Assembly (NCBI GenBank): GCA_022562855.1
Contig: JADFON010000114.1
Coordinates: 1-6,395 of the forward strand
DNA from: Candidatus Zhuqueibacterota bacterium
GTDB taxonomy: Bacteria > SM23-31
DNA length: 6,395 bases
Direction: 5' to 3'
Both the position numbers and the translations under genes were made by a program. Under the pieces are notes generated by a model. That model ran no database searches, was not told the DNA's origin, and saw only the letters and a program-made list of their open reading frames with translations. This document shows positions 360-6,395 of this stretch, in pieces. The stretch's first letter is position 1; each line of letters opens with the position of its first letter.

Positions 360-3300
360 ATGTTTATAACAAAACTATCGGTTGAACGCCCGGTACTTAT
401 GACGATGTTTGTGATGACGTTTGTGATATTGGGATTGTTTTCATTCACGGATCTTGCTATCGATCTCTTTCCCCAGGTTGATTTTCCTTTTATAACGGTT
501 AGAACGATCTATCCCGGATCGGGTCCTGCTGAGATCGAGAATCTCATTACAAAGCATATCGAGGAAGAAACAAGCGCAATAAACGGAATAAAGACTATTA
601 CCTCAACCTCGATCGAGGGAATTTCCATAATTGCGATCGAATTTGAGGTCGGCACCGATATCGACGTTGCGGCAGCCGATGTGAAGGACAAGGTCGAAAT
701 CGCCAAATCGAGACTGCCTTTGGAGGCTGAGGAGCCTGTTATACTCAAGTTCGATATCGGCGCCCAGCCGGTTATGGATCTTGCTATTTCGAGTCCGAGA
801 CCGCTTAATGAATTATTCGATCTCACAGAAGACGTGGTAAAACCTGAATTGATGAAAATTCCGGGTCTTGCCTCGATAAATATTCTTGGGGGCAAAGAGA
901 GGGAGATCAGGGTCGAGTTAAACAGGGAACTGTTGAAAGCTCAGGATCTCAGTATTCTTGACGTGGTTATGGGACTCAGCGAAGCAAACCTGAACCTTCC
1001 AAGCGGACACATAACCGAACGGAGAAAAGAATACACTATCAGGGTTTCCGGTGAATTCGAGACGGTGGACGACATTAAAAACATCTATATTCAAGATTCT
1101 TCTGACAGAAAAGTACGGCTGCGGGACATCGCAACTGTTTTTGACGATTTCAAGGAGCAGAGACAACTCGCACGATTTAACAATATTTCATCTATAGGAA
1201 TCTCGCTCATTAAGAGGTCGGACGCTAATATTGTGGAAGTCACCGACTTTGTCAAAGACAACCTTGAAACGATTGCGGCGCTTCTTCCATCCGACGTTGT
1301 AATTCAAATCGCAAGCGATAATTCCAACTTTATCCGTGATTCGATAAGCGAAGTTGTGAATAATATGGGTATCGGTATACTCCTGACAGCGCTTATTCTT
1401 TTTCTATTCCTGCACACCTGGCAGGGAACAATCATAGCCGCTATCGCAATGCCGACCGCGATCATCGCCACATTTATACTGATAAAGTTTGCCGGTTTTA
1501 CGATAAACTTCATGACATTGCTGGGACTTGCGGTAACGGTTGGCGTGCTTGTGACAAATTCCATAGTGGTACTGGAAAATATTTTCCGGCATATAGAAAT
1601 GGAAGAAGATATTAACCAGGCATGCATAAATGGAACCGCGGAAATAGCCACAGCCGTAGCCGCAAGCACTTTGACAAACATTGTGGTCTTTACCCCGATC
1701 GCTTTTATGGGTGGTATAGTGGGTCAATTCTTTTACCAATTCGGTCTGACGGTGGCTTTTGCTACGTTTTTTTCCTTAATTGTTTCTCTGACGCTGACGC
1801 CGATGCTTGCCTCAAAACTGCTCAAAAAGGAGAAAAAGGAAAGTTACGGTTTTGATGTCGCTGCGCTTCTGATCTTAGTGTTACTACTCTCCATTGTTGT
1901 TTTGCAAATATTAATGGAAGTCGGATCTTATCTTTCTCAGTTTATCGGAACATGGGGAACAATGGTGTCGATTTTGACAGGTATCGCCATTGCCGGGACT
2001 ATCGGGAAAATAGTGATGAGCGCTTCTATAGCGGAATTAAAAAAACATATCCTTTACCGTATCTGGCGTTTCTTCATAAAATTTGCAATTTTTCTTGTCT
2101 CCGGCTCTCTTATATATGGAATCTTTTTCTATCTATTTGGAACCGAATTAGCGGTAATATTGACGCTTTTCCTGGCAGTTGTTTTACTGCTGAATCACTT
2201 TTTCGGAATTCTCGATAAGTTTGGCAGAGTATGGGATAATTTCTACAAGCGTCTTGCGCAGGATTATAAAGGAAGTCTTGAATGGGCGCTGAGTCACAAA
2301 GGATTTGTCGTGATGGTTGTACTTTCCGTATTCTCTGTCTCGCTTTATCTCGGTCAATACATCGGTTCGGAATTCTTTGCTCCGGGAGACCAGGGATATA
2401 TAGGTATCTCTGTTGAACTTCCTCCCGGTTCTAATTTCGACCAGACCAACAAAGCGCTTTTTAGTATCGAGAAGGAATTGGAAGATGTTCAGGAAATCGA
2501 AAGTTATTACACGATACTCGGTCAAGCTCCGGGTACGTTTATCGGTAATAATGAAGGAATCCAATTCGGGCAGATCGTTGTGAAACTGATTTCACGTGAT
2601 CTGAGAACGGCGAGTACGAATGATGTGCTTGAACTCTTAAAACGGAAATTGACAAGAATACCCATGGCAGATATTACCGTCAGGAGGCGCGAAAGCGCGG
2701 GAGGCGGCGACGATGGTAATCCTCTTCAGATAGAGATAAGCGGTGAAAACCTCGACCGGTTGAATCTTTTAGCCGATGAAGTCATGAAAATTGCAAAATC
2801 CACACCCGGTGCGGTCGACATCAGGTCAAGCTGGCGTGAAGGCGTTCCCGAACTGCACCTCGTGCCGAACAGGAAAAAACTCGCAGATTACGGTATTTCA
2901 CTTTCAAGCCTCGCTGCTGTTATACGAACATCGATCGAGGGAAATGTCGCCACCCAATACCGGGTTGGCAATAAGGAATATGATATACGGGTTCAACTCA
3001 GCAAAAAGTATGTCAGATTCGCCGACCAGGTGATGGACATTATCGTCAAGAAAGACGATATGTTTATTCCTTTGAGCGAACTGGCAACCCTCAGGCAGGT
3101 CGAAGGACCCACATCAATATCCCGAAAGAATAAGAAGCGGTTGATCAGTGTGTCCGGAAATTTTGCAAACAGAAGCGGCGGTGATGTTGTAGCGGACATA
3201 AGCGCCGGGATAGACAAACTTGACATCCCCCCGGGATACCTGGTACATTTTGGCGGTGATGCGGAGTTCCAGGAGGAATCGTTCACAGAGATGATCAAAG

Positions 3301-3809
3301 CGCTCCTTCTCGCAATCATACTTGCATATATCGTTCTTGCCGCAATAATGGAATCGTTCGTCAATCCTTTTATTATCATGATGACGCTTCCTCTTGCTCT
3401 TATCGGAGTCATATTGTCACTTGTAATCAGCGGGAAGACAATAAACATAATTTCGTTAATGGCAATTGTCATGCTTGTGGGAATCGTAGTCAATAATGCC
3501 ATTCTGCTCCTCGACTATATGCAGAAACTGCGAAAGCAGGGAAAAACCCTGAACGAAGCGATACTTGAAGCGGCTTCGGTCAGACTTCGTCCCATTTTAA
3601 TGACAAATATCGCTACCGCAATGAGCATGATCCCGCTTGCGCTTGAGTTGGGTGAAGGAGCCGAAATGCGGTCGCCGATGGCAATTGTTTCTATCGGGGC
3701 GCTGATTACATCGACTATTTTTACGTTATACATTATTCCCATTCTGTACAATGTATTTGAAGATATCAAAGATAAACGGGTTATCTCAACAAGCGCCGTG
3801 GGAAACTAA
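360..3809 (+). CDS. RND efflux transporter permease (AcrB/HAE1-like) with extra membrane insert
   Basis: Inner-membrane pump of the resistance-nodulation-division superfamily, which exports small molecules with a periplasmic adaptor (encoded just upstream). The ATG at 360 follows AGAGG (346-350) at 9 nt spacing and gives the canonical RND opening (FITKLSVERPVLMTM). Order seen: TM1 ~12-32; first porter/docking region ~33-330, including LFPQVDFPFI and YPGSGPAEIE; TM2-TM6 ~336-485; a four-segment hydrophobic insert ~496-622; TM7 ~649-669; second porter region ~670-975 (ELPPGSN 686-692, GGDAEFQEES 965-974); TM8-TM12 ~978-1131, including RPILMTNIATAMSMIPLAL. At 1149 residues it is about 100 longer than usual family members (~1000-1050). 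The TM4 motif reads GVLVTNSIVVLEN, with Thr399-Asn400 where AcrB has Asp407-Asp408; TM10 has Asn1045 where AcrB has Lys940. The frame is intact. Substrate cannot be predicted; drug, bile, lipid or signal export are all possible. Confidence 0.95.
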   Translation: MFITKLSVERPVLMTMFVMTFVILGLFSFTDLAIDLFPQVDFPFITVRTIYPGSGPAEIENLITKHIEEETSAINGIKTITSTSIEGISIIAIEFEVGTDIDVAAADVKDKVEIAKSRLPLEAEEPVILKFDIGAQPVMDLAISSPRPLNELFDLTEDVVKPELMKIPGLASINILGGKEREIRVELNRELLKAQDLSILDVVMGLSEANLNLPSGHITERRKEYTIRVSGEFETVDDIKNIYIQDSSDRKVRLRDIATVFDDFKEQRQLARFNNISSIGISLIKRSDANIVEVTDFVKDNLETIAALLPSDVVIQIASDNSNFIRDSISEVVNNMGIGILLTALILFLFLHTWQGTIIAAIAMPTAIIATFILIKFAGFTINFMTLLGLAVTVGVLVTNSIVVLENIFRHIEMEEDINQACINGTAEIATAVAASTLTNIVVFTPIAFMGGIVGQFFYQFGLTVAFATFFSLIVSLTLTPMLASKLLKKEKKESYGFDVAALLILVLLLSIVVLQILMEVGSYLSQFIGTWGTMVSILTGIAIAGTIGKIVMSASIAELKKHILYRIWRFFIKFAIFLVSGSLIYGIFFYLFGTELAVILTLFLAVVLLLNHFFGILDKFGRVWDNFYKRLAQDYKGSLEWALSHKGFVVMVVLSVFSVSLYLGQYIGSEFFAPGDQGYIGISVELPPGSNFDQTNKALFSIEKELEDVQEIESYYTILGQAPGTFIGNNEGIQFGQIVVKLISRDLRTASTNDVLELLKRKLTRIPMADITVRRRESAGGGDDGNPLQIEISGENLDRLNLLADEVMKIAKSTPGAVDIRSSWREGVPELHLVPNRKKLADYGISLSSLAAVIRTSIEGNVATQYRVGNKEYDIRVQLSKKYVRFADQVMDIIVKKDDMFIPLSELATLRQVEGPTSISRKNKKRLISVSGNFANRSGGDVVADISAGIDKLDIPPGYLVHFGGDAEFQEESFTEMIKALLLAIILAYIVLAAIMESFVNPFIIMMTLPLALIGVILSLVISGKTINIISLMAIVMLVGIVVNNAILLLDYMQKLRKQGKTLNEAILEAASVRLRPILMTNIATAMSMIPLALELGEGAEMRSPMAIVSIGALITSTIFTLYIIPILYNVFEDIKDKRVISTSAVGN
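1845..2225 (+). other. RND-internal insert encoding four additional hydrophobic segments
   Basis: Covers roughly residues 496-622 of the RND pump. In AcrB-like proteins TM6 (here ending SLTLTPMLASKLL) is followed by a short amphipathic cytoplasmic helix and then TM7. Here four hydrophobic stretches intervene at about 501-519, 533-553, 571-592 and 595-615, before the usual amphipathic helix resumes (WDNFYKRLAQDYKGSLEWAL). A lysine-rich stretch (KKEKKE) lies just before it. An even number of added segments would keep TM7 and the second porter domain in their normal orientation. Boundaries are by eye. Confidence 0.75.
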
Positions 3810-4040: not shown

Positions 4041-4190
4041 TTACGCATTTGATGTAGAGAAAACATCCCTTGAAATGTATTTTAATTCCATCACCGGAAA
4101 AAAGGCACAGGCAGCCGGATTATCGTTGGATCATTAATTATTAACGGGAAAGTAGTGAGGTAATCTAAATAATCCATACAGGAGCTTTTT

Positions 4191-4943
4191 ATGCGAAAAA
4201 CTATTATTGCCGGAAACTGGAAAATGAACCTGACCGCAGTTGAGGCAAAGAACCTTGCCCGGTCTATCGCAGACTACGTCGGAAAACGATCCGATCCGTT
4301 GGTTATTCTCTGCCCGCCATCGCCGTTGTTGTCCATCGTAGGTAATGAAATCGCCGCATCCAACGTGGAATTATCTGCGCAAAACGTACATTCTGACGAT
4401 CTCGGTGCATTTACAGGCGAAAGCTCCGATACCATGCTCCATTCAGTCGGCTGCGCCTACACTTTGATCGGGCATTCCGAGAGAAGAGCGATCTTCAACG
4501 AAGACGATGATTTTATTAACAAAAAAGTGAAAAGGGTTGTCGCCGGTCCTCTTAAACCGATTCTTTGCATTGGGGAAACGCTTGAAGAAAGAGAACAGGG
4601 TAAAACCAACGACCGTATAAAACAGCAATTGCGTGACGATCTGAAAAATGTACGGATTTCTAGTGGAGAAGACCTAATCATAGCCTATGAACCGGTCTGG
4701 GCAATAGGAACCGGTAAGACAGCTACACCTGACCAGGCTGAAGAGGTGCATGCATATATCCGTCAACTTCTTGAAGAGATATTTACCGAAAATACGGCAA
4801 ATGCAATGTCGATTCTCTATGGCGGAAGTGTTAAACCGGAAAATGCAGTAGAAATTCTCGCTCAACCGAACATTGACGGAGCGCTTGTAGGGGGAGCAAG
4901 CCTGACCATGGATTCCTTTACCGGTATAATAAATTCGGTTTGA
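4191..4943 (+). CDS. tpiA: triosephosphate isomerase
   Basis: Cytoplasmic glycolytic/gluconeogenic enzyme interconverting dihydroxyacetone phosphate and glyceraldehyde 3-phosphate. The complete 250-residue protein is the normal family length. Catalytic and binding motifs are all present: GNWKMN at 8-13 with Asn9 and Lys11; GAFTGE at 72-77; catalytic His95 in IGHSERR; catalytic Glu167 in AYEPVWAIGTGKTA, which also contains the flexible loop 6; and the phosphate-binding YGGSV (210-214) and GALVGGASL (230-238). The ATG is set by AGGAG at 4180-4184 with 6-nt spacing and by alignment of the N-terminal strand RKTIIAGNWKMN. It is not preceded by gapA/pgk or followed by secG, common neighbours elsewhere; instead an SDR frame begins 25 bp downstream, probably on the same transcript. 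Nothing looks damaged. Confidence 0.98.
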   Translation: MRKTIIAGNWKMNLTAVEAKNLARSIADYVGKRSDPLVILCPPSPLLSIVGNEIAASNVELSAQNVHSDDLGAFTGESSDTMLHSVGCAYTLIGHSERRAIFNEDDDFINKKVKRVVAGPLKPILCIGETLEEREQGKTNDRIKQQLRDDLKNVRISSGEDLIIAYEPVWAIGTGKTATPDQAEEVHAYIRQLLEEIFTENTANAMSILYGGSVKPENAVEILAQPNIDGALVGGASLTMDSFTGIINSV

Positions 4944-4968
4944 CTTCTGCCATATATGAAGGAATTAA

Positions 4969-6395
4969 ATGAATAAAAATGATTTTCTTGAAAAGTACGG
5001 ACCGTGGGCGCTCGTTACCGGTGCATCATCGGGAATAGGCGCCGAATTCTGCCGGCAGCTTTCCGGATACGGGTTAAATATTGTAATGATTGCCCGCAGA
5101 AAGAGTGCGATGGAGGAAATAGCCGCAAACCTGGTCGAAAAGTACTCTGTCGAAGTGAAGACAATCGAATCCGACCTGTCTAAGGATGATTTTTTTGCGA
5201 AGTTAGAACCTGAGATATCATCTCTTGATATTGGTATTCTAATCAATAATGCAGGATTTGGCGTAAAGGGATCGTTCTTGTCAAACAGCCTGGAACGTGA
5301 GCTTGAATTGTTGAACGTAAACTGTCGCGCTCCCCTCGAATTAACACATATAATCGGACAAAAAATGCTTGAGAGAAAAAAAGGCGGGATTTTCTTTCTC
5401 TCTTCCGTACTCGGATATTCGGCTTCTCCCTATTTTGCCAACTATGCGGCAAGCAAAGCATACAACTTATTTATGGGTGGCGCTCTTTGGTCAGAACTCA
5501 AGGCAGCCGGAATAGAAGACCGGCCGGCCCAAGAGATAGTAGCTGCTAAGAACAATTCTTCTCCTGACGACGAGATGGCTGCCCTTGAACGTGCAGGGGT
5601 TACGGCTGTAACCTGGAATGACTTGGGGTACCCGGCACGGCTCAAGGAGATCGCTGACCCGCCGCCGGTGCTCTTCTATAAAGGTACGCTGCTGGCCAGC
5701 GACGACCGCTCCGTGGCCATCGTCGGCACCAGAAGCCCGACGACCTACGGCCGGGAAGCCGCCGCGGTGCTAAGCCGGGGATTGGCGCAGGCCGGACTAA
5801 CGGTGGTCAGCGGGTTGGCGTTGGGAATAGACGGCGTGGCCCACCGTGCCGCTCTGGAGAACGGAGGCCGGACCATCGCCGTTATGGCGGGCGGTCTGGA
5901 CGGGGTGTACCCGAAAGACCATACGGCCCTGTTCGGGCAAGTGCAGGAGCATGGGGCGGTGGTCAGCGAACAGACTTTGGGTGTTAGACCCGACTCTAGG
6001 AGCTTTCCGCGGCGAAACCGCCTGATCAGCGGCATGTCGCTGGGCTCGGTGGTTATTGAAGCCGCGGAGGGCAGTGGGGCCAGGCACACGGTCTACCACG
6101 CCCTAGATCAAGACCGGGAGGTGTTCTGCGTACCGGGGAGTATTTTCTCTCCGGCCAGCGATTTCACCAACCGGATGATAAAAGAAGGCGCAAAGCTGGT
6201 GATGGGAGTCACCGATATATTGGAAGAGTTGAACATGGTGGAGGCCGCCCCAAAGGCGGGGAAGTCGAAAAAGACGTTAAACGCATTGGAGAACGTTCCG
6301 GAGCAATTGTCTTTCGCGACTGCCGATGACGATTTTCCAGAGGAGCAAGCGCTGCTCAGCCGGTTAACGGACGCTCCGCTACATATCGATGAAAT
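4969..6395 (+). CDS. in-frame chimera: N-terminal SDR oxidoreductase joined to DprA, 3' partial
   Basis: One frame stays open for 475 codons from ATG 4969 (GAAGGAA at 4958-4964, 4-nt spacing, 25 bp after tpiA) to the window end. Residues 1-182 are a classical short-chain dehydrogenase: nucleotide-binding TGASSGIG 17-24, NNAG 93-96, catalytic Ser146, Tyr159 and Lys163 (YAASK). The match ends at ELKAAGI (176-182), before the expected next beta strand with its PG motif and the C-terminal substrate region, so the SDR lacks roughly its last third. From about residue 183 the protein is DprA, which loads RecA on incoming single-stranded DNA: YP..L.EI.DPPPVL..KG 221-239, AIVGTR 250-255, SGLALGID 281-288, GGLDGVYP 308-315, FPRRNRLISG 346-355, VFCVPGSIFSPAS 385-397, and the start of the C-terminal winged helix (LHIDE 471-475). 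DprA's N-terminal helical domain is mostly missing. Both halves are thus incomplete, and GC jumps at the join. This is most likely a chimera rather than a working bifunctional protein. The DprA half might start internally at ATG 5575, but no good ribosome site precedes it. Confidence 0.85.
   Translation, partial: MNKNDFLEKYGPWALVTGASSGIGAEFCRQLSGYGLNIVMIARRKSAMEEIAANLVEKYSVEVKTIESDLSKDDFFAKLEPEISSLDIGILINNAGFGVKGSFLSNSLERELELLNVNCRAPLELTHIIGQKMLERKKGGIFFLSSVLGYSASPYFANYAASKAYNLFMGGALWSELKAAGIEDRPAQEIVAAKNNSSPDDEMAALERAGVTAVTWNDLGYPARLKEIADPPPVLFYKGTLLASDDRSVAIVGTRSPTTYGREAAAVLSRGLAQAGLTVVSGLALGIDGVAHRAALENGGRTIAVMAGGLDGVYPKDHTALFGQVQEHGAVVSEQTLGVRPDSRSFPRRNRLISGMSLGSVVIEAAEGSGARHTVYHALDQDREVFCVPGSIFSPASDFTNRMIKEGAKLVMGVTDILEELNMVEAAPKAGKSKKTLNALENVPEQLSFATADDDFPEEQALLSRLTDAPLHIDE
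5499..5530. other. SDR/DprA junction
   Basis: SDR similarity ends in KAAGI (codons to 5514) and DprA-like wording is clear from RPAQEIVAAK (from 5521), so the join lies within about 20 bp. The segment KAAGI(E/D) would suit either parent: SDRs commonly read ELKAAGI-D-V at this point, and DprA N-terminal helical domains commonly carry an AAGL/AGI-D..R...L..A pattern. A short shared sequence at the join is therefore plausible. The 8-bp palindrome GGCCGGCC sits at 5522-5529, just on the DprA side. Confidence 0.65.
5521..6395 (+). other. dprA: compositionally foreign segment carrying the DprA core
   Basis: Sampled 60-base lines here count 47-72% GC, around 60% overall, against 33-48% in lines sampled upstream. 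The change coincides with the switch from SDR to DprA. The segment encodes the DprA Rossmann-like core plus the first turn of the C-terminal winged helix. The wording DREVFCVPGSIFSPAS and the absence of the common SGSLITA motif (here SGARHTV, 369-375) recall Chloroflexota/Dehalococcoidia DprA proteins; this taxonomic reading is from memory and tentative. Confidence 0.65.

Follow-up and report, generated by a model that had tools for sequence, protein, structure and literature searches.

The end of this contig is very probably an assembly chimera of two half-genes from unrelated bacteria, to judge from comparisons with sequenced relatives, and the reading frame that crosses the join, from a short-chain dehydrogenase (SDR) into DprA, almost certainly represents neither a new protein nor a natural fusion. 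The two halves differ in taxonomic origin and in base composition, and the intact relatives of each half stand in normal gene neighbourhoods. A sequence-only reading of the same DNA had proposed either an assembly chimera or illegitimate recombination; the differences between the halves in phylum, GC content and intact neighbourhood, together with a junction that was not found elsewhere, speak for the former.

Results

The window (the whole stretch of DNA analysed) is the entire contig C120, 6395 bases long, from a host bin of 491 contigs with 80% completeness and 2.5% contamination, and the join sits close to its end. A single open frame of 475 codons with zero stops runs on the forward strand from the ATG at 4969 to 6393 and is terminated solely by the contig end at 6395. 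Pfam models matched both parts of its translation, residues 13-182 fitting adh_short (1.1e-28) and residues 206-412 fitting DNA_processg_A (7e-73), with the DprA part starting at about residue 176; the uninterrupted SDR-DprA frame described in the sequence-only reading is thus real. The features around the join are listed in Table 1. Further upstream, positions 360-3809 encode an AcrB/AcrD/AcrF transporter (HAE1-type RND) of 1149 aa, against 1021 positions in the Pfam model, and the Pfam match is split, an extra hydrophobic stretch (about residues 495-650) lying between its two halves. In the leader 5' of this gene (240-320), a span of 50 bases holds two copies of the near-repeat 'caggcaccaaa'; a similar sequence, 'aaaaaaggcacaggcagcc', is found again near 4100.

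Table 1. Features at the end of the contig, with the evidence for each assignment
Feature	Position	Strand	Evidence
tpiA, triosephosphate isomerase (host bin), directly upstream of the SDR gene	4191..4943	+	Pfam TIM 6e-91; tpiA-SDR order shared with G001 and G002
SDR-family dehydrogenase gene assigned to the host bin, 5' two thirds; C-terminal third missing	4969..5493	+	adh_short; identity to G001/G002; GC 44%
Junction block GAACTCAAGGCAGCCGGAATAGAA (ELKAAGIE), fitting both parent genes and containing the breakpoint	5494..5517	+	Start of DprA DNA homology; end of SDR protein homology
Foreign dprA fragment from a SAR202-type Chloroflexota, lacking ~50 codons at the start; 3' side cut by the contig end	5518..6395	+	DNA identity, tree, GC, TIGR00732

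Intact SDRs of 260 aa in G001 and 262 aa in G002 are 69% and 52% identical to the SDR piece, respectively; in these two genomes of the host's family the gene order is tpiA-SDR-secG. The window shares with them a tpiA directly upstream of the SDR gene, but has dprA in place of the SDR end and secG. In its matched residues 13-182 and in the motifs TGASSGIG (cofactor binding, TGxxxGIG), NNAG and YAASK (catalytic, YxxxK), the translation resembles the classical SDRs (PF00106), the nearest NCBIfam model being NF040690 (mycolate_SDR), with a score well under the cut-off. It differs from them in having no C-terminal third, because the contig changes origin there: homology ends at about residue 183, short of the roughly 250-270 aa of a full-length SDR with its C-terminal part, and the shortfall against the intact G001 relative is about 78 of 260 residues (30%), in agreement with the earlier remark that the dehydrogenase is cut before its C-terminal third. 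The missing part lies downstream of the YxxxK motif and is kept in intact relatives. Neither the remaining C-terminal part of the SDR nor secG was found in the host bin. Of five class relatives, four have SecG, and in the two family members it is encoded immediately downstream of the SDR; had the true assembly path been lost at the join, the SDR end and secG would both be expected to be absent from the bin, as they are. On this evidence, bases up to about 5493 are assigned to the host bin.

Base composition changes with the origin of the segments: GC content is 0.44 in acrB, 0.46 in tpiA and 0.44 in the SDR piece, against 0.61 in the dprA piece, and the corresponding third-position values are 0.48, 0.44 and 0.45, against 0.70.

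In DNA sequence the dprA piece matches G106 and G097 with 83-84% identity, and its translation is 79% identical to the DprA of Chloroflexi bacterium casp150-mb.275, in which an intact dprA is followed by topA and then by a tyrosine recombinase gene. The SAR202 genome Io17-Chloro-G4 has the same order with an interrupted dprA frame (L062 4507-5483), split by a frame change into pieces at 4729-5118 and 5118-5483, the result of a sequencing error or else the mark of a pseudogene. In a maximum-likelihood tree the DprA of the window falls in a clade of four (99/97), nested in a clade of nine (100/99) made up of SAR202-type Chloroflexota genomes, apart from the DprA proteins of the family and class to which the host belongs. 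The latter proteins are 43-46% identical to the window DprA, a range that counts only G002-G005, where most of the domain was alignable; the DprA of G001 is a short fragment, 30% identical. Because of its position in the tree and its low identity to these proteins, the window DprA is not the host's inherited copy. The earlier suggestion to search the two halves separately thus led to relatives that differ at the phylum level, the host's family for one half and SAR202-type Chloroflexota for the other. Bases from about 5518 on are identified by these comparisons as dprA of a SAR202-type Chloroflexota.

As in other members of the DprA/Smf family (PF02481, TIGR00732), the Rossmann-like domain is complete in the window, scoring 229 bits with TIGR00732 (dprA; cut-off 191) and 245 bits with PF02481. 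The window sequence differs from these proteins in that SDR sequence replaces the first ~50 codons and the contig end cuts the 3' end. The N-terminal helical domain is incomplete, about 50 residues of intact relatives (FWVALSRVPQLGTVRFRRLESHFGELETVWNAS...) being absent and AGIEDRPAQEIVAAKNN...SPDDEMAALERAGV being retained; the loss amounts to roughly half of the helical region, so the statement that most of the N-terminal domain is gone went too far.

A profile search recovered no second DprA in the host bin, which seems to be without a recovered DprA of its own. The only other PF02481 match in the bin is weak and belongs to a Rossmann-type protein of 168 aa (L094 308-814, G000:C72), which we rejected as a DprA since it is LOG/TIGR00730-like by eye. 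A second, Chloroflexota-like topA was likewise discounted, as the topA fragments in the bin are all divergent (42-50% identical) and presumably belong to the host itself. PADLOC matches raised the ShosA defence system as a reading of the dprA part; those models match DprA-like domains generally, and a housekeeping dprA is favoured because the relatives show an ordinary dprA-topA-recombinase neighbourhood.

At the join, DprA DNA homology starts at 5493-5494 in the nearest genomes and SDR protein homology stops at ELKxxGI(D/E), position 5517; the parent genes therefore overlap by 24 bases (5494-5517), which code for ELKAAGIE here. Alignment on both sides places the breakpoint anywhere within this block, with no single base assignable. 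ELKAAGIE stands in the same codon phase in the SDR and in dprA, and because of this shared phase the frame stays open across the join, which replaces the one-in-three chance previously estimated for an open frame. The accompanying judgement that the open frame is weak evidence for function holds, as the frame follows from the position of the join and carries no independent functional evidence. Ranked by octapeptide among about 100,000 SDR-DprA pairings, the block is among the best 2-16 when the donors read ELKAAGIE or ELKAAGLD, within the best 81-112 with ELKAAGLE donors, and unremarkable for the ELR donors G106 (ELRAAGLE) and G100 (ELRATGLE), a ranking that was computed with the join already known and is supportive only. 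The available relatives of both parents, which stand in for the strain's SDR and the exact donor, agree at just 10-14 of the 24 block bases.

A search for the same junction in independent genomes, also proposed in the sequence-only reading, yielded no record with both halves among genomes, plasmids, phages and viral contigs. None of the best 80 loci in genome contigs began before residue 163, the class relatives matched one side of the join only, none of 1038 plasmid records or 61 phage records covered 80% of the query, and the exact 30-base junction pattern had no match in viral contigs. Viruses and plasmids were rejected as sources of the fusion, with no covering match in viral contigs, phages or plasmids.

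Discussion

The bases from 1 to about 5493, with the AcrB-type transporter, tpiA and the SDR, derive from the host bin; a SAR202-type Chloroflexota, presumably of the same sample, is the source of those from about 5518 to 6395. An assembler working with short overlaps or k-mers probably passed from the SDR gene into dprA via the similar stretch of about 24 bases, and the seamless open frame would then be an accident of that stretch lying in equal codon phase. We infer that the join is a computational artefact or a library chimera, not an event in a cell, and that the sample contained both source organisms; we would not expect a fusion protein to exist. Species of low and intermediate coverage are prone to enter chimeric contigs (PMC7881036). 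The contig resembles the metagenome chimeric contigs of that study in that a brief stretch of similarity connects two organisms close to where a short contig ends, and differs from them in that the join keeps the frame open, the similar stretch being in equal codon phase in the two genes.

Real illegitimate (microhomology-mediated) recombination, by which Chloroflexota DNA would have been inserted into the SDR gene of the host lineage to give a non-functional hybrid, is an unlikely source of the join. The similar block of 24 bases would suit such joining as well as it suits an assembler, and a recent event would look identical in a single assembly. However, the foreign part is unameliorated (third-position GC 70% vs 45%) and reaches the contig end, so that the far side of an insertion is not seen, no mobile element appears in the ORF list or sequence of the window, and no second genome among those searched has the junction. 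That a recent recombination in one lineage should have given an expressed SDR-DprA hybrid is highly improbable. A natural functional fusion, in which an NAD(P)-binding fold would be linked with a RecA loader, could appeal to the 475 open codons and the complete Rossmann domain of DprA, but is scarcely credible for halves that differ in phylum and GC, with an SDR short by about 30% in the part after YxxxK that intact relatives retain, a DprA without some 50 N-terminal residues, and no further instance in the sets searched.

The assembly chimera favoured here carries a caution: where unrelated genes encode a common short peptide in equal codon phase, a chimeric contig may keep its frame open, and the fusion protein that gene callers then annotate is false. 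It would be wrong to assign the dprA call to the host genome.
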